45,659 nt of DNA, taken from the IMG/VR virus record IMGVR_UViG_3300037160_000009, positions 1-45,659 of that record, one strand, 5' to 3'. Below, in pieces: positions 128 through 45,659 of the stretch. Made by a program: the position numbers and the translations under genes. Position 1 is the stretch's first letter. The number at the start of each line of letters is the position of its first letter. Source of the DNA: a virus. Under the pieces are notes generated by a model. It was given only the letters and a program-made list of their open reading frames with translations, was not told the origin of the DNA and did no database searches.

Positions 128-149
128 TCACGTCACTGATTAGGGCCAT
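1..149 (-). CDS. Portal protein, 5' end (continues at right end of window)
   Basis: This is the start of the portal gene, cut by the window boundary. The ATG at 149-147 overlaps the terminase stop as TAATG. The encoded start is MALISDVTPHK, followed by residues also encoded at the far right end (VMLAVKRGFD). Read across the circle, the full portal is 648 residues, 11 more than the part visible at the right end from its GTG codon. The terminase-then-portal order with a one-base overlap is a classic head-module arrangement and supports both the start and the circular join. Confidence 0.88.
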   Translation of the reverse strand, partial: MALISDVTPHKVMLAVKRGFDRLANFRAARLHFLRQYTGPYYDSNAGNV

Positions 150-2068
150 TATGCACCAGAAAAGTTAAAAGAAGTCTTGGGGCCTTTGTTTCGCTCTTTG
201 CGTTTCTTATACTCTTTTAGCCGGTGGCCAAAGGACTTCTCGGGAGCTTCGTAGGGATCAATGCGATATTTGGGAGCATCGTTTTGCCCGACGAGGCAGA
301 GCATGTCTGCAATAACCCTGTCTCCGTGAGCAAGTCGTGTAGACTCAGACTCTTCAGTAAGTTCGGCAGGACCAATGCCTCCTCCTTCAAACTGAACATA
401 AGTAAGGCATTCATCAAGAGCTTCTCTGCTGTGGTTGATGAAGCGACCGTGGGCATAGCATTTTCGGAGCCAACCCAACGCCGATGCTTTGACCTCGGGA
501 GAAGACCTCCATCCATAACGCTTTCCTACTTTCTCGCTGGTTGTTCCTGCTTGACGAGCATAGTAGATGACGGGATATCGGTACACTTGAACGAGTTGCC
601 TGCCGAAGTCAAACCCAGGGTCGCCGTTGTTTTCCCAAATGAGTAGGGGTCGCTTATTCCTACCGCCCGTCCAGATCGCCAGAGCACAGCAAATTCTCGC
701 GAACTCATGCGGGGGGACATTGGCATCTGCCCATTCGGCAATTTTCTCCCGAGTCTCATTGCAGAGTATTGAGGCAACACTATTGCTTGCTCCTTGGCCC
801 TTGCTTATGTCAATGCCGATTGTGTAACTCTTTGACTGGTCAGGACGGCCAGACTCATTCGTCGCACACCAAATCCTCAGCGGTCCCTTCGGGGCTGACC
901 AGTGGATCGCGGATACATCACACCGATTGATCGCCTCGACCACAGCCTCATCAGTCAACTTCTTCTTCCACACCACCGAAACCTGCCGGTGAGGAGGACG
1001 GGCAAACAACTTCTTGTGCTGCTCGATAATCACTGCTTCAAAGAACGTGTCGCCAGAACCCACATGATCCATATCAAGTTCGATGGCGATTTCTTTGGGG
1101 CTGTCCTCTTCGCAGCGGCGATCATACCAGGGAGAGCGAATCTTCCACCGGCCCAACTCATCCTCAGTCGCGTAGCGTCCTGCACCCTTCTCTGGATGCT
1201 CCCACCAGGGAAGAACCATTACCTGAATCTGCCCGCTCTGTCTCCACTTACTAAACGTCGTTCCCGCACCGTTGGGTGTGGAGACGACAAGTCGGCAGGC
1301 GGTAACGTCTTTGGTGCTTCGCTTGATTGCTTCGGCTTCTTTGACTTTCGCGAATTCGTCTAGGACAATAGAAGTTCTTCGATCTGAGCTACCCGCTGTG
1401 GCGTTAGCTGACTCGCCATCAATACGCGTCCGGGTGTCGAGATTAACAACGTGTAATTTTTTCCGGATAGTTCGGGGGAGCATCCATTCAGGGAGACGCG
1501 AGAGGATATAGTCGATTTTTCCGAAGAGAGTGCCTGGATCAGCGAGTGAACCATGAGGATAATTTTTTGGCGTTCCGTCGAGTACGTCAACTGCATCTTC
1601 CTTTCTTGAAATCAACAGATGAGATTCATCTGGCCGGAAAAGAAACCTATGAACCAGGACCGCGATATGTATCCAGGTAGCCCCAACATCACGGCTTTTA
1701 TCCGTTAAAAGCGACTCACCTTCATCAATTCCGTGTTCTATTCTGAGAAGCAGAATATCCTGAATGGGCCAAGTGATAAAAGGTAAATGGTTATACTGAG
1801 CTTGTTGTACTTCTCCCGTTTCACTCGGCTCAAATACACGAAGCGTGAAGCAGAAGGAGTTCACAAAAAAGAGAAGAGATTGCGAACACGCCGTATATAA
1901 GTCTGTCCGAAAGTCTTCATCTTTTTCAGCTGCTTCTAAAATATCCGCTCGCCATTCAAGATTCGCGTCTACCGTCTTAGGCACAATCAAGTGAGTGACC
2001 GGACACTCCCAAGTCTCCGGGAGTATGATCGGCGGCAGCTCTGGTTTGGTGAGGAATTGATTAGCCAC
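149..2068 (-). CDS. terL: Terminase large subunit
   Basis: ATP-driven motor and nuclease that packages DNA into the prohead through the portal. The 639-residue length suits the family. The N-terminal ATPase has a Walker A-like SRDVGATW and a Walker B VLDEFA. The C-terminal RNase H-like nuclease shows IGIDISKGQG, a WENNG segment and HGDRVIADML, which carry the expected acidic residues. The start is GTG at 2068, two bases before the upstream stop and without a Shine-Dalgarno, so re-initiation after the endonuclease VII gene is likely. Its TAA overlaps the portal ATG. Confidence 0.93.
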   Translation of the reverse strand: MANQFLTKPELPPIILPETWECPVTHLIVPKTVDANLEWRADILEAAEKDEDFRTDLYTACSQSLLFFVNSFCFTLRVFEPSETGEVQQAQYNHLPFITWPIQDILLLRIEHGIDEGESLLTDKSRDVGATWIHIAVLVHRFLFRPDESHLLISRKEDAVDVLDGTPKNYPHGSLADPGTLFGKIDYILSRLPEWMLPRTIRKKLHVVNLDTRTRIDGESANATAGSSDRRTSIVLDEFAKVKEAEAIKRSTKDVTACRLVVSTPNGAGTTFSKWRQSGQIQVMVLPWWEHPEKGAGRYATEDELGRWKIRSPWYDRRCEEDSPKEIAIELDMDHVGSGDTFFEAVIIEQHKKLFARPPHRQVSVVWKKKLTDEAVVEAINRCDVSAIHWSAPKGPLRIWCATNESGRPDQSKSYTIGIDISKGQGASNSVASILCNETREKIAEWADANVPPHEFARICCALAIWTGGRNKRPLLIWENNGDPGFDFGRQLVQVYRYPVIYYARQAGTTSEKVGKRYGWRSSPEVKASALGWLRKCYAHGRFINHSREALDECLTYVQFEGGGIGPAELTEESESTRLAHGDRVIADMLCLVGQNDAPKYRIDPYEAPEKSFGHRLKEYKKRKERNKGPKTSFNFSGA

Positions 2069-2719: not shown

Positions 2720-3116
2720 TAGCTGTCTCCAACTTTTTCTTCAGCTTCATAGTGATTGCATTCACCCTCTCAACTGAAAGCTCACGTACCTTGTCTGCTG
2801 CCCTGATGCCAGCAGTCTCTTCCTGTACAGCCTGTGGTGCCTTGCCTTCGATTCGCTCGAAGAGGTACTGCATGGCCCAGGCAACAGGCGGGTGACGTAT
2901 CTTCTTCAGGTTCCCATCATCGTCTCGCTGATTCTCAACCCAACCCAGGGCGAGATTCCAAATCATCTGTGCGAGTTTCTGTTCTCGCGTGACTGGTTCT
3001 GCACCGTCATCAATGTCAATAACCTGAGCGGCGAGTTTCTTCAACTCTGTGGTGAGTGCTCGGGTTCCTAACTTACGGTCTGCCACTAGAAGTTTCCGTT
3101 CGGGGTCTGTAGACAT
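2706..3116 (-). CDS. Candidate terminase small subunit
   Basis: 136 residues, largely helical and charged. The central segment (LAQMIWNLALGWVE, HPPVAWAMQYLFERIEGKAPQ) resembles DUF5681-type proteins encoded near large terminases. The small subunit recognises viral DNA and regulates the motor. Position three genes ahead of terL fits, but I do not see a clear N-terminal helix-turn-helix. The start overlaps the end of the upstream paralogue gene by 31 bases. The small-subunit assignment is an inference from position and loose similarity. Confidence 0.6.
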   Translation of the reverse strand: MSTDPERKLLVADRKLGTRALTTELKKLAAQVIDIDDGAEPVTREQKLAQMIWNLALGWVENQRDDDGNLKKIRHPPVAWAMQYLFERIEGKAPQAVQEETAGIRAADKVRELSVERVNAITMKLKKKLETANADK

Positions 3117-3550
3117 TGCCAGTTAGGCCGGACGCCTTGAGTCTTGCCCTCAACTACTCGTCCAGTGCCGGTAACAGTCGTACTTCCGCCAAATGCCGCT
3201 CCTACAAGGGTTAAAGAGGGAGCTAAACCTACAGGCAAAGAAACACCTTCAGTTGTTCCTGGATCAATGAGACTGGTAGCATTACCAAAAGCCTCGCCAT
3301 CAATCACGGTAATCGTTTCGTTAGGTTGAACAGCCCCATCCCCATTGGCATCGGCGAAGACAATAATCCGTCGAACAGACCCATCGGTGGCCGCACCATT
3401 CCCATTTAGGAAATCCAGAATGAGGCGTTCGTAGGATTTCAATGGCCTCGGCTGCATATTCGCATCAAGGACTGTCATCACCGCCCCTGTGCTGCTAAGC
3501 ACTCCGGTGTAGGACAGAAAAACATTTTCACCTTGTTTAATGTTTTGCAT
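3086..3550 (-). CDS. Tandem paralogue 3, beta-rich probable virion protein
   Basis: 154 residues and the last of three adjacent related genes. Shared features are an N-terminal strand-rich segment, a YERLILDFLNG motif matched in the others as TERLLIDSLGG and TERLVIDFLEG, and a GRVVEGKTQGVRP segment. The ending CLQTPNGNF is shared with paralogue 2. It also has a unique DANGDGAVQPNE stretch that looks like a dockerin or EF-hand-type Ca-binding loop. Start and upstream stop overlap as TAATG. A small decoration or fibre-like virion protein is plausible; the function is not recognised. Confidence 0.78.
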   Translation of the reverse strand: MQNIKQGENVFLSYTGVLSSTGAVMTVLDANMQPRPLKSYERLILDFLNGNGAATDGSVRRIIVFADANGDGAVQPNETITVIDGEAFGNATSLIDPGTTEGVSLPVGLAPSLTLVGAAFGGSTTVTGTGRVVEGKTQGVRPNWQCLQTPNGNF

Positions 3551-3987
3551 TAGAAGTTACCGTTCGGGGTCTGTAAACACTGATAAGCGGGACGAACACC
3601 TTGGGTAGTACCTTCCATAATTCGTCCTGCTCCAGCGATCTTAACTACCGCAGTAGAAATCGTGGCAAGTACACAAGGGATTACTCCCACCGGACAAGCG
3701 ATACCTTCCTTGGTGTCGATCTCTAATCCCTCGGCAGTATTGAAGGAAGCGATCAGTGTGCTTGAAAAGGATGTAGATGTAGGAGCAGGTGCTCCAAGAA
3801 CATCGGCAGAACCAGCAGTCAAATTTCCTTCGAGGAAGTCAATCACAAGACGTTCGGTCGGTAGCAAAACATCCACATTTTGATTTGCATCAAAGATACC
3901 GATAGCAACAGAAGTAGAACCAATGGGGTTAGCCACGAGAGCCAATTTTACATTCCGCCCCTGCATACTAAGGTTAAACTGGCCCAT
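3550..3987 (-). CDS. Tandem paralogue 2, beta-rich probable virion protein
   Basis: 145 residues, middle copy of the triplet. It carries TERLVIDFLEG and GRIMEGTTQGVRP, and its end CLQTPNGNF is identical to that of paralogue 3. The body is alanine-, threonine- and valine-rich with alternating hydrophobics, as in a beta-sandwich. TAATG overlaps on both sides indicate strict co-translation with the other copies. No family is recognised. Likely a virion surface or decoration component, inferred from composition and late-operon location. Confidence 0.78.
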   Translation of the reverse strand: MGQFNLSMQGRNVKLALVANPIGSTSVAIGIFDANQNVDVLLPTERLVIDFLEGNLTAGSADVLGAPAPTSTSFSSTLIASFNTAEGLEIDTKEGIACPVGVIPCVLATISTAVVKIAGAGRIMEGTTQGVRPAYQCLQTPNGNF

Positions 3988-4400
3988 TAGAGTGTACCTC
4001 CAGGAGTAATCAAGTCTTTGAAGATAGTAAGAGTTCCTAGGGTGTTCCCATCAACTATGCGACCGACTCCACTAAGAGTAACCGTAGCCGTAGAATCCCC
4101 GGCGTGAACCCAGGGAGTAACTCCAATGGGGATTGCTTTCCCCCCTCCCCCAGCAAAGAAGAATCCTGAAGTTGTGTTAAAGCTCGCGACAATCGTGCTC
4201 CCCGCTACGCCCGCCGTACTCACAAGTTTAACATTGACTGTGCTACTTGTAACCGTGCCTCCGAGAGAGTCAATCAGTAGACGCTCAGTTGAACTCAGAA
4301 TGTGTGGAGTCCCGTCTCCATTATAGATTTCAAGCGGGGCCACGGTAGAGGCAGGATGACCCACGTATCCGATATTGACTGTACGTCCGATGTTAGCCAC
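3987..4400 (-). CDS. Tandem paralogue 1, beta-rich probable virion protein
   Basis: 137 residues and the most divergent of the three copies. It keeps TERLLIDSLGG and GRIVDGNTLG but not the shared CLQTPNGNF end. The start is GTG at 4400, just after the upstream stop, with GGAG overlapping that stop. Its TAA overlaps the next ATG. Small, Ser/Thr/Gly-rich and predicted all-beta, so a minor virion protein is the best guess. Function unknown. Confidence 0.76.
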   Translation of the reverse strand: MANIGRTVNIGYVGHPASTVAPLEIYNGDGTPHILSSTERLLIDSLGGTVTSSTVNVKLVSTAGVAGSTIVASFNTTSGFFFAGGGGKAIPIGVTPWVHAGDSTATVTLSGVGRIVDGNTLGTLTIFKDLITPGGTL

Positions 4401-14515: not shown

Positions 14516-15240
14516 TAGCATTACTCCACGGTGAGTGTCTAGAGCTAATGAATACGTTACCAGACAAGTCAATAGACATGGTGGCGTGTGATTTACCGTA
14601 TGGAACGACGGCTTGTAAGTGGGATACAATCATTCCGTTTGTTCCGCTGTGGGAACAATATACCCGGTTATTGCGTCCCGGTGGGGCGATTGTTTTGAAC
14701 GCCTCTCAGCCATTTAGTGCGGCTTTGATTATGAGTAATCCGGCATGGTTTCGCTATGAATGGATATGGGAGAAATCTAAGGCATCCAACTTCCTGTTGG
14801 CCCGTAAACAACCGCTCAAAGCCCACGAAAGTATTCTGATCTTCGGTCCTACTCCGGTTCGGTACTTTCCACAAAAAAGTAGTGGTAAACCGTTCAAGGG
14901 TGCTGGTAGATCAAAAAAAGGTTCACAGACGGAATTAGTGAACACCGTCCCGAATCCAACCTTTCGGGCCGATAATATAGGAGATAGATTTCCTCGGAGT
15001 GTCGTATATTTCACTACTGCTGAACGCGAGGGTTGTTTGCACCCTACACAAAAACCCATCGCCCTTATGGAATACTTTATCAAAACGTATACTATAGCGG
15101 GTGAAACTGTTCTTGACAATTGCATGGGCAGCGGTACTACCGGGGTAGCGTGCGTAAACACCAAACGTAACTTTGTGGGCATTGAACTTGATCTAACATA
15201 TTTTCAAGTTGCAAAAACCCGCATAGAGGATTTAACATGA
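14512..15240 (+). CDS. DNA methyltransferase, N6-adenine or N4-cytosine type
   Basis: 242 residues. Motif order is that of the beta class: catalytic motif IV CDLPYG near residue 27, then the SAM-binding motif I DNCMGSGTTGVA near 205, followed by VGIELD. The central part carries a basic patch (KKSSGKPFKGAGRSKKGS) and TQKPIALMEYFIKTYT, typical of N6_N4_Mtase proteins. No restriction enzyme is adjacent, so it is a solitary modifier that may protect phage DNA. ATGA overlaps link it to the polymerase and to the resolvase. Confidence 0.9.
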   Translation: MIALLHGECLELMNTLPDKSIDMVACDLPYGTTACKWDTIIPFVPLWEQYTRLLRPGGAIVLNASQPFSAALIMSNPAWFRYEWIWEKSKASNFLLARKQPLKAHESILIFGPTPVRYFPQKSSGKPFKGAGRSKKGSQTELVNTVPNPTFRADNIGDRFPRSVVYFTTAEREGCLHPTQKPIALMEYFIKTYTIAGETVLDNCMGSGTTGVACVNTKRNFVGIELDLTYFQVAKTRIEDLT

Positions 15241-15797
15241 GTAAGTATACCTGTTTCATGGGGATTGATCCGGGCCGTGAAGGGGCCTTTGGTGTTCTCT
15301 CCACCAATGATGGGGAGTTGTGGGAGCCGGATGTTTGGGATATGAGTCCCACAACCAATAGAGGAATTGATCTGATTTGGGCTAATGATTTGCTAAGCCG
15401 GTTTATGACTTCTGGTGTTCTTGTCATTCTCGAATCCAACACTGCCCGCCCCGGTGAAGTGCCTGATTACGCAATGCGGTTCGGCTGGCAAACAGGCAAT
15501 TTAGAAGCACTTCTGTACGCGAAAGGCTTTGAAACGCGACTCGTACCCCCTAACTTATGGACGGGTAGGCTTGGCTTGCCTGGCAAGACGCACCACGGTT
15601 CAATAGAGCAACGAGCAGCTATGTGGGATGAGCTTTACCCTGAGCACAAGGAAATGGTCCGTGGGCCAAAGGGCGGGCTAAAGGATGGCCGTCTGGATGC
15701 CCTGCTGATGGCCGAATGGCTTAGAATGACGGAATTAAGCCCGGTCGGAACCAAAGGGGGCAAGCGACCGCCAAAGTTTTTCGGATATAAACCTTGA
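15237..15797 (+). CDS. RuvC-like Holliday junction resolvase
   Basis: 186 residues with the RNase H-like fold. The acidic metal ligands appear in order: MGIDPGREGAFGVL (Asp), VILESN (Glu) and KDGRLDALLMAEW (C-terminal Asp). A conserved middle part binds DNA (LVPPNLWTGRLGLPG and a K-T-H helix). It would resolve junctions made by the single-strand annealing and recombination proteins encoded downstream. The ATG overlaps the methyltransferase stop as ATGA. Confidence 0.88.
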   Translation: MSKYTCFMGIDPGREGAFGVLSTNDGELWEPDVWDMSPTTNRGIDLIWANDLLSRFMTSGVLVILESNTARPGEVPDYAMRFGWQTGNLEALLYAKGFETRLVPPNLWTGRLGLPGKTHHGSIEQRAAMWDELYPEHKEMVRGPKGGLKDGRLDALLMAEWLRMTELSPVGTKGGKRPPKFFGYKP

Positions 15798-15926: not shown

Positions 15927-15955
15927 TTGACAAGTTGCAAATAAAGTGGTATACT
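15927..15955 (+). promoter_or_regulatory. Sigma-70-type promoter giving a probable leaderless mRNA
   Basis: TTGACA at 15927-15932, 17-base spacer ending GTGG, TATACT at 15950-15955. The expected start site (about 15961-15963) falls within three bases of the nuclease ATG at 15964, leaving no room for a ribosome-binding site. Confidence 0.86.
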
Positions 15956-15963
15956 GTAAACCC

Positions 15964-17505
15964 ATGAGTAACCCTTCCTGCTATCACCTTTCAGCTTCTT
16001 CGATCAGTGCCTTCAAGGCGTGTCCTACACGCTTTAGGCTCGCCCATCGTGAGGGCTTGCGGTTGATTGAGGACACCGACAGCCAACGCATGGGAACCAA
16101 TTGGCATGAGTTGCATGAGAAATATGCAGACGCCATGCCACATGTAGTCGATCCTGAACAAGGCGTTACGCCGGAAGAAGTGGCTTTGGATGCCGTCGTG
16201 AGATTGTTAAATGATCGTTACGTGCTTCACAAGCCGGTGAGTAAGACGGATGAAGAGTGGGCGATGGAGCGGCAAATCCTGCTGACTAGCTTTATCGGCT
16301 ACCAGTGGTATTATCAGAATGATCCGGTTGAAGTGCTTGCGAGTGAAGTGCCGTTTGAGTTGCCTTTGAAGAGTCCAAAGGTTGGGATGAATCTGCCGGT
16401 TAGTGAGGTTGTAAGGGTTGGTAGGATTGACCACATAATCCGGTGGCAGGGATCAGTGTGTGCCTTGGAGCGTAAATCAACTTCGCGTTCTATTGCCCCG
16501 GATTCCGATTACTGGGACAAGGCCAAGAAGGATTCTCAGGTGTCTCAATATGCCTGTGCCTTTCGGGACTTGAATCTTGCGGGTTTGCTCCCCGAATCGG
16601 TGAATGCAGCACTTTATGGCAACTACGAACAAAGAGCGGAAGGCCAAACAATATCGGCTACATCGTCCGGAAGTCTTAGCCCGGAACAAGGCGTGGAGGA
16701 CAAAACAGAGACGCCGGGCGATACGGTTGATTTCATTTGTAAAAAGGAGAGGATGCACGATGTGTCCCGAGAAGCGGAAACCTTGTCTGCAATTCCATCA
16801 TCGCAACCCGGTCGAGAAGTTGTTTACGATAGGGTACATGAAGGACATTCGCAGTTTGGCCCGGACTTGGGCGGAGATTCAGAAGTGCGACATACTGTGT
16901 GCCAACTGCCATTGGTGCCTGCATGCAGAGGCCAGAGCGACGTGAGATTTAGTGTTTTGTACGACGTTTGGCATAAGCCGACGATAAAACCTGCCACACT
17001 CACGCAAGCAGAGACGGCGGCGTTCCTCAAGCCCGGCGAAATCCGGCCCGGTCCGCATACCTATTGCGGGCAGGAATTCGAGATTAAGAACGAAAGTGAA
17101 CCTGATGGTCCCTACTTCACAATCAACGGGACGAACGCCACGATTGAACGAGGCAAGAAGGGCTTTGCGATCCGTGAGACGGTGGAAATGTATGGTGCTA
17201 GGCTCTTAGAGGATATCTACGAGAGGCCAGAGCACTACTTTGTGAGACGGGAGATCGCACGTACTGATGCGGACCTTGCTCACTTCGAGAGGCAAGCCTT
17301 CGCAATCTATCAGAGTCAGAAGCTCGCAGAGAAGTACAATGCGTGGGTAGAAAACGAACAGCAATGTAGGGCTACGTTCGCTTGCCCGTACATACCCATA
17401 TGCTACGGTCCTGGGGCTGATGCGGTGTGTGACGGAAAAACTACCCCATCAGGTTTTAAGCGGATTTTCGTGCAGCTTACGGTCAACGAACAGGAGACAG
17501 ATTGA
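15964..17505 (+). CDS. Cas4/RecB-like PD-(D/E)XK nuclease interrupted by an in-frame HNH insertion
   Basis: 513 residues from the ATG at 15964. The N-terminus SASSISAFKACPTRFRL has the first iron-sulphur Cys. Catalytic motifs are GRIDHII, ALERKST (ExK) and QVSQYACAF. The C-terminus has CRATFACPYIPIC, which completes a Cas4/AddB-type 4Fe-4S site. Between ALYG and VLYDVWHKPTIKP lie 111 extra codons, low in pattern, encoded by the opposite reading of the embedded HNH gene. The 333-base insert keeps the frame open, so a full protein with a 111-residue loop could be made. It probably processes DNA ends for recombination with the Sak4-like ATPase. Confidence 0.85.
   Translation: MSNPSCYHLSASSISAFKACPTRFRLAHREGLRLIEDTDSQRMGTNWHELHEKYADAMPHVVDPEQGVTPEEVALDAVVRLLNDRYVLHKPVSKTDEEWAMERQILLTSFIGYQWYYQNDPVEVLASEVPFELPLKSPKVGMNLPVSEVVRVGRIDHIIRWQGSVCALERKSTSRSIAPDSDYWDKAKKDSQVSQYACAFRDLNLAGLLPESVNAALYGNYEQRAEGQTISATSSGSLSPEQGVEDKTETPGDTVDFICKKERMHDVSREAETLSAIPSSQPGREVVYDRVHEGHSQFGPDLGGDSEVRHTVCQLPLVPACRGQSDVRFSVLYDVWHKPTIKPATLTQAETAAFLKPGEIRPGPHTYCGQEFEIKNESEPDGPYFTINGTNATIERGKKGFAIRETVEMYGARLLEDIYERPEHYFVRREIARTDADLAHFERQAFAIYQSQKLAEKYNAWVENEQQCRATFACPYIPICYGPGADAVCDGKTTPSGFKRIFVQLTVNEQETD
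16616..16945 (+). CDS. HNH endonuclease nested in another frame of the Cas4-like gene
   Basis: 109 residues (MATTNKERKAKQYRLHR...). A basic N-terminus precedes an HNH core: GCTMCPEK, then LQFHHRNP with the HH pair, then CDILCANCHWCLHAE with zinc Cys pair, Asn and His. This is the compact HNH layout of free-standing homing nucleases. The ATG at 16616 is two bases before the point where host homology breaks, and the TGA at 16943-16945 is eight bases before it resumes. It has no intron core or intein residues around it. The ATG is not preceded by a good ribosome-binding site. Confidence 0.83.
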   Translation: MATTNKERKAKQYRLHRPEVLARNKAWRTKQRRRAIRLISFVKRRGCTMCPEKRKPCLQFHHRNPVEKLFTIGYMKDIRSLARTWAEIQKCDILCANCHWCLHAEARAT

Positions 17506-17843
17506 TGCCTTACCTCACACCTACTGATAAGTCCCGTCAAGAGCTTGCATGGAGGGCAAGCACCGCCGGTGAGCTTAATTACCGAATCACTCGTCAAATT
17601 ACACGATACATTGAAGGAAAAGGTTTGTCCTATCAGACAATCAATGATATCCTTGGTGCTCTTGATGGGGCGGGTAAAGAGTTCTACCGCCGTGTGGTTG
17701 CCCCCTACGAAGATTTGAAAATCAAAGAGAATGGAGACGTGTACGATGAACAAACCGCCCCCCTTAAAGATGCCTCCAGTTGGACGAACGAACCCTTCTT
17801 CCCTGCGAGCGGTAAAAACCTTCAGCGTAACTCCCTGGACTGA
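17505..17843 (+). CDS. DUF6899-like phage protein
   Basis: 112 residues. TAGELNYRITRQITRYI, GLSYQTINDILGAL and FYRRVVAPYEDLKIKENGDVY match a small family found beside phage recombination genes. No catalytic function is known. The ATG overlaps the nuclease stop as TGATG. The conserved part ends near DVY, and the remaining 33 residues overlap the start of the next gene in another frame, so the tail may be a late extension. Confidence 0.78.
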   Translation: MPYLTPTDKSRQELAWRASTAGELNYRITRQITRYIEGKGLSYQTINDILGALDGAGKEFYRRVVAPYEDLKIKENGDVYDEQTAPLKDASSWTNEPFFPASGKNLQRNSLD

Positions 17844-18627
17844 TGCCGCTGAGGGACAGAAGATTGTACTCTACGGCAAGAGTGGCGTTGGTAAGACGAC
17901 TCTCGCCGTTATGGCACCTAATGCCGTGTTGATTGGTTTAGACGATGGTGGCCGTAAAATCGCCAACCCTAAGACGGGGAAGCCAGCCAATGCCATTCTT
18001 GGCATAGAGACATTTGAGGACTTGCGGGATGCCCTACACCAGAAAAACCTTGTTCCTGAGAAGGGTACAATTGTACTCGATACGGTTACTAAGGTGGAAA
18101 CCCTCATTGAGCCGTATCTATTTGCGACTGCTAAGACGGAAAAAGGCGGCACTGCAACGAGTCTTGAATCATACGGGTGGGGTAAAGGCTACCGACATCA
18201 ACTAGAAACATTGCGACTCGTACTCACTGATTTGGATGCTCTTATCCGATCAGGTCGCAATGTGATTCTGCTGGCCCAACTGGCTCAGGCTCGCATTGCC
18301 AACGCTGAGGGCACTGACTACCTTGAAGATGGCCCTAAGCTGTACCACTCGTCTCAGGCGTCGGATCGTACCGAAGTCTGTGAGTGGGCGGACCACGTAT
18401 TCCGCATCGGCTATCAGGATTTCAGCGTAGTGAAGGAGAATGCTGGGGCCAAGGCTGGTAAGGTACAGGGTACGGGACGCACTCGTTGCGTCTTCACTGA
18501 TGGCCCCTTGCACTTTGTCGCCAAGTCCCGGCCTATCGCGGGCTACCGCATTCCAGAGGTTATCTCGTTTGATAGCCCGGCGGATGATACCCTTTGGGAA
18601 TTTTGTTTCAACGGAGCAAAAGTCTAA
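17746..18627 (+). CDS. Sak4-like RecA-family ATPase
   Basis: 293 residues. A RecA-fold ATPase of the single-strand annealing or recombinase type (AAA_24 group): Walker A GKSGVGKTT near residue 50, Walker B TIVLDTV, and a following polar segment NVILLAQLAQARI in the sensor position. It loads on single-stranded DNA for recombination, usually with a partner single-strand-binding protein, for which the 19013 gene is a candidate. The start at 17746 is chosen because GGAG lies nine bases upstream. The stop overlaps the GroES-like start as TAATG. Confidence 0.85.
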   Translation: MNKPPPLKMPPVGRTNPSSLRAVKTFSVTPWTDAAEGQKIVLYGKSGVGKTTLAVMAPNAVLIGLDDGGRKIANPKTGKPANAILGIETFEDLRDALHQKNLVPEKGTIVLDTVTKVETLIEPYLFATAKTEKGGTATSLESYGWGKGYRHQLETLRLVLTDLDALIRSGRNVILLAQLAQARIANAEGTDYLEDGPKLYHSSQASDRTEVCEWADHVFRIGYQDFSVVKENAGAKAGKVQGTGRTRCVFTDGPLHFVAKSRPIAGYRIPEVISFDSPADDTLWEFCFNGAKV

Positions 18628-43734: not shown

Positions 43735-45659
43735 CTAAAAGGCATTGCTATTTGCGAAGGGCGGTTTTGGAGTTGGCCCCGCCACGAAGGCTCGCGTCAT
43801 TCCGGCTTTAACCATACGCTGGGCATCTTCTGCACCAGCCTGGGCATTCTGGTTAACTTGTTGTCCGGGAGACGGTTGTCCCCCCATCACGCTTGCAGGC
43901 TGACCGTTCTGGAGAATCTGATTCATCATGTTGGGTTTAGGCGGACCAGCCTGTCCCTTGCTGTCCTGCATCTGCGGTCCCATCATCTGCATCTGTTGTT
44001 GCTGCTGCTGGAATTGAGGATCATAGAAGACCTCATCCATCCACTGGATGCCAGCATCCTTCGCCATCCGTAGCACGAAGGCTTGGAAGGAGAACGGAAC
44101 ACCCAGGCCCATACAGATTTGTGCAGCAGCCGCAGCAGCCGGGAGAATCTTCTGAGCGAGGTCGTACTCCTGTTGGAGGCGAACCTTGCTGTCGATTCGT
44201 CCCATCGACTCAGGTTCGATCTCGAACGTGAAGTCGATGTAATCCCCGCTGCGAATCTCCGGCGTCAGGATGACTTGAACTTCCTGAATCGTCGGCGGTT
44301 GCAGGAATTGTGCCCCAGTCATGGGGTCCATCTGCATTCCACCGGGAGTAACGTGCCGCTTCGCGAGCGGGATGTTCATCAGGGGATCAGTGTGGAAGTA
44401 CCACGCTCGCCGACGCTTCTCGTCGGCAGCAAACTTGTACACCATGTCCTTCATGTCTTCCAGGGACACGGAAGCATTCTGCTGGAGGATGTTCGCAGCT
44501 GTCGCGGACTTTGCATCGACTCGCTGACCACCCACCTGCTCGGGATTGCCCGCCATCATGTTGAACCACGCCTGAAGAGAGGACAGGTGGTTCTCGTTGG
44601 AATTCTCCTGCCCGCCGAGTCGCATGATCTCCACGGCTGAGGGATCATCAACTGCCACACCTTCGCCATCGGACGCATTCCGAATCTCTTCCGCATCGTC
44701 GGCGGCAGATCGCTTGTAGGCGTACACGTCCTTCTGACGTTGGGCCTGCTCCACGATCTTCTTCGCCATCCGGTTAGAGAGTTCGTGCAGATCAGACCAG
44801 ATGCCAACCATCGGGACGGGGAGGCAGTTACCCGGCACGGGCGGCGTCAGGGCGAGCAAGGAGTACGGACCTTCCTTCACGCCGTAGTAGTCCTCTACGC
44901 GGAGATATTCGTCATAGTCCATATCCTCGCTGCCGGGGATCGTGACCATCGCGTTCGCATCAGGCACCCACAATTCCACGATCTCCACGTCGTCTTCCAG
45001 GGCGGAGTTCTCAGACTCCTCAATGTTTCTCATCGACAGGTTGTAAGCCCGCTTGTCTCTGTGAGTTTCCTGTCCGGCTCTAGGAAGACGCTCAACCAAG
45101 TCATTGTCGTACAGCCCGCTATCAAGCAGCACACGGCGGGGAACGGTAATACGGTCCCCCATAAAAGAGGCATCAACGAACATATGCTCGCGGCTATTTG
45201 GATCAACCACCCAATTGTCAAAGTCCACTTTCTTTGTATAAACCGTACCAGCATCAACATGCCCTTCCATATCATCCATCGCGTAGACGCTATCACTTTG
45301 ACACAGGCCGGTCTTCAGAATCCCGAGAGTGAAGATCGCGTCCACGATGGAGGCCCGATACTCATTACAGATGTTAATTTTCTTATCATTCTGGTCTAAA
45401 GCTAGTCCCAACAGGGTTGCGTACTCGCGTGAGGCGAGATATGGGGTCATAATGATCGTTCGAGGGAAGTTCATCACCATCGTGGGAAGTAGCACTCGGA
45501 TGGCATTAAATACCATATTTAGGGCTTCATCGCCCACATTTCCGGCATTACTGTCATAATACGGACCCGTATACTGTCGAAGGAAGTGCAGACGGGCAGC
45601 ACGAAAGTTAGCAAGGCGGTCAAAGCCCCGTTTGACAGCCAACATCACCTTATGTGGGG
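43735..45659 (-). CDS. Portal protein (main part; starts at position 149 across the circle)
   Basis: Forms the dodecameric ring through which DNA enters and leaves the head. 637 residues are visible from the GTG at 45648; the true protein is 648 residues from the ATG at 149. The body has long helices and acidic regions (ALEDDVEIVELWVPDANAMV, YDEYLRVEDYYGVKEG), and the C-terminus is rich in Gln, Met and Pro (QFQQQQQQMQMMGPQMQ), like podovirus portals. WSDLHELSNRMAKKIVEQAQ matches portal stem-region helices. It is immediately downstream of the terminase and its ATG overlaps the terminase stop. Confidence 0.88.
   Translation of the reverse strand, partial: PHKVMLAVKRGFDRLANFRAARLHFLRQYTGPYYDSNAGNVGDEALNMVFNAIRVLLPTMVMNFPRTIIMTPYLASREYATLLGLALDQNDKKINICNEYRASIVDAIFTLGILKTGLCQSDSVYAMDDMEGHVDAGTVYTKKVDFDNWVVDPNSREHMFVDASFMGDRITVPRRVLLDSGLYDNDLVERLPRAGQETHRDKRAYNLSMRNIEESENSALEDDVEIVELWVPDANAMVTIPGSEDMDYDEYLRVEDYYGVKEGPYSLLALTPPVPGNCLPVPMVGIWSDLHELSNRMAKKIVEQAQRQKDVYAYKRSAADDAEEIRNASDGEGVAVDDPSAVEIMRLGGQENSNENHLSSLQAWFNMMAGNPEQVGGQRVDAKSATAANILQQNASVSLEDMKDMVYKFAADEKRRRAWYFHTDPLMNIPLAKRHVTPGGMQMDPMTGAQFLQPPTIQEVQVILTPEIRSGDYIDFTFEIEPESMGRIDSKVRLQQEYDLAQKILPAAAAAAQICMGLGVPFSFQAFVLRMAKDAGIQWMDEVFYDPQFQQQQQQMQMMGPQMQDSKGQAGPPKPNMMNQILQNGQPASVMGGQPSPGQQVNQNAQAGAEDAQRMVKAGMTRAFVAGPTPKPPFANSNAF
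45533..45659. repeat. Terminal direct repeat, right copy (circular overlap)
   Basis: Exact copy of bases 1-127, inside the portal gene. See the left copy for interpretation. Confidence 0.95.

Follow-up and report, generated by a model that had tools for sequence, protein, structure and literature searches.

The virus record IMGVR_UViG_3300037160_000009, analysed here over its whole length of 45,659 bases (the window), carries a gene for a RecB/Cas4-like nuclease that probably acquired an HNH endonuclease gene by in-frame insertion. Under this reading the nuclease would be made with a disordered loop, the HNH protein would be translated separately and serve homing, and the host frame would have been kept open. 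The record is of metagenomic origin. An exact 127-bp direct repeat is found at its two ends (1-127 and 45533-45659), which suggests that the phage genome is complete and was assembled as a circle.

The nuclease gene (15964..17505, + strand) is preceded by a Holliday junction resolvase-like gene (15237..15797, +; phrog_1770, 8.6e-13) and followed by a Sak4-like recombinase gene (17731..18627, +; phrog_124, 6e-21), neighbours that, going by these family matches, mark a recombination/replication module. A putative sigma-70-like extended -10 promoter, TTGACA-17-TATACT, recognised by consensus match only (15927..15955, +), has its predicted transcription start ~2 nt before the nuclease ATG at 15964, and a leaderless or nearly leaderless nuclease message is therefore possible. 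Elsewhere in the window a second gene of the HNH superfamily (2070-2486, -), which is endonuclease VII-like (phrog_2633, 1.1e-34) and free-standing, adjoins ORF 149-2068 (-); its family differs from that of the HNH gene nested in the nuclease gene. Three neighbouring small ORFs at 3086-4400 (-) are alike in length and sequence and look like tandem paralogues, two of them ending in QCLQTPNGNF.

The host gene codes for 513 aa, in-frame insert included, with zero internal stops. Its product is assigned to the RecB/Cas4/EXO5-like PD-(D/E)XK nucleases with iron-sulphur-type cysteines by its PD-(D/E)XK motif and by the presence of one N-terminal cysteine together with C-terminal ones, and it matches Pfam PF12705 (7.8e-17) and the phrog_1218 exonuclease family (2.6e-18). 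Catalytic residues D156, E169 and K171 are kept and are invariant across 17 aligned sequences, as are Cys 20/468/474/480/489. The relatives come from IMG/VR scans, which yielded ~25 distinct nucleases, all uninterrupted; searches of named phages and of GTDB genomes found no relative. Constraint on the host nuclease was compared within a set of 13 nuclease sequences that are <85% identical. Six of the 108 positions invariant in the other sequences are changed in the host nuclease, two of them at the junction; the four others fall within the range of relatives (0-8). Mean identity is 0.615 for the half before the insert (0.612 among relatives) and 0.602 for the half after it (0.605 among relatives). 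By this comparison both halves of the nuclease are as conserved as those of its uninterrupted relatives.

Alignment to the uninterrupted relatives, the check proposed in the preliminary description, was combined with an enumeration of in-frame joins and places the ends of the insert at a conserved motif. The insert has a net length of 330 nt (16623..16952, +); its ends are ambiguous by a few bases, 16621-16950 fitting equally. The insertion point is within the relatives' conserved R-x-G-[N/S]-T-LYDVWHKPTIKP, and nearly all of them read R-x-G-N/S-T-LYDVWHKPTIKP at this site, the more distant ones reading G-V/M/G/A-[L/F]YDVWHKPTI. The empty site of the uninterrupted relatives is the conserved GGCAAYACNCTNTAYGAYGTNTGG stretch, while the host nuclease reads LYG, ~110 additional residues and then S-VLYDVWHKPTIKP. 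Net removal of 330 nt joins either GGC-AA to TGTTTTG, giving G-N-V-L, or GGC to AGT-GTT-TTG, giving G-S-V-L. QVS and LYDVW are 140 residues apart in the host nuclease, compared with 21-53 in every relative that allows the measurement. The insert is divisible by three in length and falls between codons amid conserved host residues, as do inserts of the ShiLan type discussed below. It had been described as a 333-base insertion; the insertion itself stands, since it is absent from the ~25 distinct relatives, and its size is corrected to net ~330 nt because one of the codons counted has a counterpart in relatives. A similar linker in HNH-free homologues had been named as one of the observations that would speak against this reading, and none of such size occurs among the relatives. 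Note that one relative (L042, 4001-5236) is longer by five residues, GGATI, at the insertion site, so the turn found there tolerates small length changes.

A single insert-bearing allele was found: across phages the HNH insert is present once and absent from all relatives found. This, and the metagenomic nature of the record, would fit an assembly artefact in which an HNH gene was misjoined into a nuclease contig. Such an artefact is very improbable, however, given that the record closes with an exact end repeat of 127 bp, that the frame is kept at both junctions with the HNH stop just before the host sequence resumes, and that the HNH coding sequence accommodates the host frame for 110 codons.

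The nested HNH endonuclease gene (16616..16945, +; 109 aa) is in the +1 frame relative to the host and fills the insert. An alternative ATG is present at 16604, and the HNH ORF (16604/16616-16945) is wholly within the host ORF; the ATG at 16616 is built from the host codons TAT-GGC. The earlier assignment of the second frame to a full 109-residue HNH protein is upheld by matches to phrog_3106 (5.3e-20) and phrog_2255 (3.1e-18), both annotated as HNH endonuclease, and by intact Zn/HNH residues (CxxC, HH and CANCH, as in relatives). HNH relatives were found in ~351 phage records, every one under 60% identity, and a search of IMG/VR for closer ones returned none. The relatives examined are free-standing genes, often close to phage tRNA genes. 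The family of the nested HNH is absent from 15 viral records (some of them fragments) that bear uninterrupted nuclease relatives, which suggests that the gene originated outside this phage group. Locus L118 was considered as a second nested case and rejected: its 183-aa overlapping ORF is found in very GC-rich DNA, has no family match and reaches just 25 nt upstream of the HNH start. The ATG at 16616 lacks a clear ribosome-binding site, the GGTGA 12 nt upstream being too far. Several T4 homing endonuclease genes likewise have no good ribosome-binding site and overlap the upstream gene (PMC2988022).

The host frame is stop-free across the whole insert (110 codons), in agreement with the preliminary description, and this openness is unlikely to be due to chance. 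A host-frame stop arises where an HNH codon ending in T precedes a codon starting with AA, AG or GA. T precedes none of the 29 potential stop-forming followers, against 19 of the 79 other positions (Fisher P 0.0016). The exact probability of an open frame was then computed with the HNH protein fixed and synonymous codons drawn by a given codon usage. P(open) is 1.1e-3 under phage codon usage (15 other phage genes), 4.4e-4 under that of the host nuclease and 2.4e-2 under the HNH gene's own usage, which is a weaker null. Windows of 109 codons taken from the 15 other genes are never open in the matching offset (0/6082), and none of 73 IMG/VR HNH relatives is open in the host-offset frame over the core, where stops range from 1 to 26. 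It is on these codon nulls, the two empty counts and the multiple-of-three length that chance is judged an unlikely cause. The acidic character of the host-frame peptide was also considered as a sign of selection (P 0.00025 against whole-phage codon usage) and was dropped because P is 0.14-0.15 against host-nuclease or HNH codon usage.

These results weigh on the alternative that the HNH insertion was damaging, with the nuclease inactivated or being lost and its frame open by chance. The insertion breaks the conserved R-x-G-N-T motif, which becomes L-Y-G...S-V, so nuclease activity has possibly been lost; the single known allele and the P(open) of 0.024 under the HNH's own codons point the same way. 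Loss of the nuclease is nevertheless unlikely, as an in-frame length combined with 110 stop-free codons is improbable by chance and neither half shows stops, frameshifts or an excess loss of invariant residues.

A group I intron carrying the HNH gene was rejected. An Rfam search of the insert for group I or other structured RNA gave no match even at E<10, the folding of the insert RNA is ordinary compared with shuffles (z 0.45), and there is no room for a ribozyme core because HNH coding sequence takes up nearly all of the insert, leaving no space beyond the ORF. Inteins, which have Cys, Ser or Ala as first residue and His-Asn before Cys, Ser or Thr at their end, were rejected as well: the host-frame insert begins with NYE and ends with VRF before S, that is with Asn first and Phe last, and the required residues are absent. 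The two earlier statements, that the insert is too short for a group I intron core and that it has no intein end residues, are thus both sustained. A very small or new type of self-splicing RNA or protein element, from which a mature nuclease without the insert would result, could explain the position between codons of a conserved motif, as is found for introns and inteins, the Ser directly after the insert and the clean in-frame joins to G-N-V-L or G-S-V-L. It is quite improbable in view of the empty Rfam search, of folding no better than that of shuffles, of the coding content of the insert and of its end residues; moreover, introns do not require an open host frame. The insertion could also have created a gene in pieces, with two working nuclease halves made separately as in NrdA/mobE of Aeromonas phage Aeh1, and function-preserving splits of genes by HNH genes are documented (PMC2988022). 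The host, however, is one uninterrupted ORF and not two frames; with no host-frame stop, nothing would terminate the first half, and the second needs no start of its own, which leaves this possibility a very slim one.

The in-frame insertion that we favour can be put as a sequence of steps. A mobile HNH gene of the free-standing type would have entered the RecB/Cas4-like nuclease gene in frame, its landing site being a conserved DNA motif that encodes a turn before a core beta-strand, a loop likely to be tolerant. One message would then have two starts. Initiation at 15964 would lead to read-through of the insert and to a 513-residue nuclease with a disordered surface loop of 110 residues, and internal initiation at the ATG 16616 would give the 109-residue HNH protein. 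The HNH protein would presumably cleave or nick uninterrupted nuclease genes of co-infecting phages, whose repair would copy the insert into them. Selection, at entry or afterwards, would have kept the host frame stop-free. Translation of both products, activity of the nuclease with its loop and homing are parts of this scheme that we infer, homing on the grounds of the HNH family and of the conserved insertion site. The best reading of a frame that is non-randomly open between two conserved halves remains the one first suggested from the letters alone, a mobile gene tolerant of its host's co-translation, co-translation itself being presumed.

Structure prediction of the 513-residue protein, also proposed at the outset, is compatible with such a loop. 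In the AlphaFold model most of the insert has a pLDDT of ~25-30 and sits between helix 211-218 and the confident strand 330-337, so the in-frame insert is predicted to be disordered and to precede a core strand. The length of the loop ahead of strand 330-337 varies among nuclease relatives. Overall confidence in the model is low (pTM 0.57), and its PDB fold matches, the best of which include AddAB, EXO5 and MGME1, are weak, all with E above 0.007. The control model of an uninterrupted relative (L001) is no better and is too poor for a detailed comparison of the loop.

The arrangement had been contrasted with the usual sites of HNH genes (intergenic space, introns or inteins), but it has a precedent: the ShiLan domain is an out-of-frame HNH gene in mycobacteriophage DNA methylases, with a stop-free host frame, no intron or intein, a predicted loop and a scattered distribution (Arsenault, Gosselin and Gogarten, 2025, PMC11855218). 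Applejack gp54/gp55 is annotated as a nested pair (PMC12613952), and nested pairs are found by annotation also in Lamina13, Molly and StellaBean. The Applejack pair was re-tested here (PP978873.1; locus L174, 3659-5218). Its HNH gene is in the +1 frame, as in the nuclease/HNH pair, and the methylase host frame has 0 stops in 208 codons versus 9 stops in the other offset, an openness beyond chance (P(open) 0.003). Both systems have the insert between codons of a conserved stretch, a stop-free host frame, an insert taken up by an HNH gene on the same strand but in an alternate frame, no sign of an intron or intein and a host-frame product predicted to be disordered. They differ in the host gene (RecB/Cas4-like nuclease here, methylase in ShiLan), in the HNH protein (phrog_3106/2255 with 109 aa versus phrog_589 with 195-208 aa), in the GC content of the HNH gene (52.6% versus 61.5%), in the HNH start (a codon borrowed from the host versus a GTG inside the insert) and in that a single allele is known here. 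The nested HNH and the ShiLan HNH match at only 26% over the HNH core (E 0.017). Common descent of the two elements is not borne out, and their sequences point to the same kind of element in another lineage; with host gene and HNH family both unrelated, the nuclease/HNH pair is an independent case of the ShiLan kind.

Two unrelated HNH families in unrelated hosts, the nuclease and the Applejack methylase, thus have the same frame and a non-random openness. A general conclusion from them can be drawn tentatively: possibly, dual readability lets HNH genes invade functional phage genes again and again with no need of an intron or intein, selection keeping the host frame stop-free and the host protein merely gaining a disordered loop. 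The methylase cases are from GC-rich genomes, in which the scarcity of stops might account for an open host frame. What is added here is an independent case from a phage of ~52% GC, with quantified evidence against chance openness. This suggests a fourth way for homing endonuclease genes to reside inside functional genes, beside introns, inteins and split genes, and the nuclease/HNH pair puts the question in a small, assayable enzyme.

Other known systems share part of this organization. Pacc40 gp60 carries a second hidden HNH-like insertion (PMC11855218), likewise an out-of-frame HNH-like gene whose host gene remains open; the host gene and the HNH-like protein are different ones and the frame is +2 instead of +1. 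A universal relative frame for nested HNH genes is ruled out because of this +2 frame. Free-standing HNH genes of phrog_3106/phrog_2255 share the family, the Zn/HNH motifs and a length of about 100-140 aa with the nested gene; their location, however, is intergenic, and 1-26 stops interrupt the corresponding frame. The gene-in-pieces homing endonucleases, mobE in nrdA of Aeh1 and mobA in gene 60/39 of T4 (PMC2988022), are similarly found within functionally critical coding regions. They split their host into two polypeptides, whereas the nuclease frame described here runs uninterrupted through the HNH gene.
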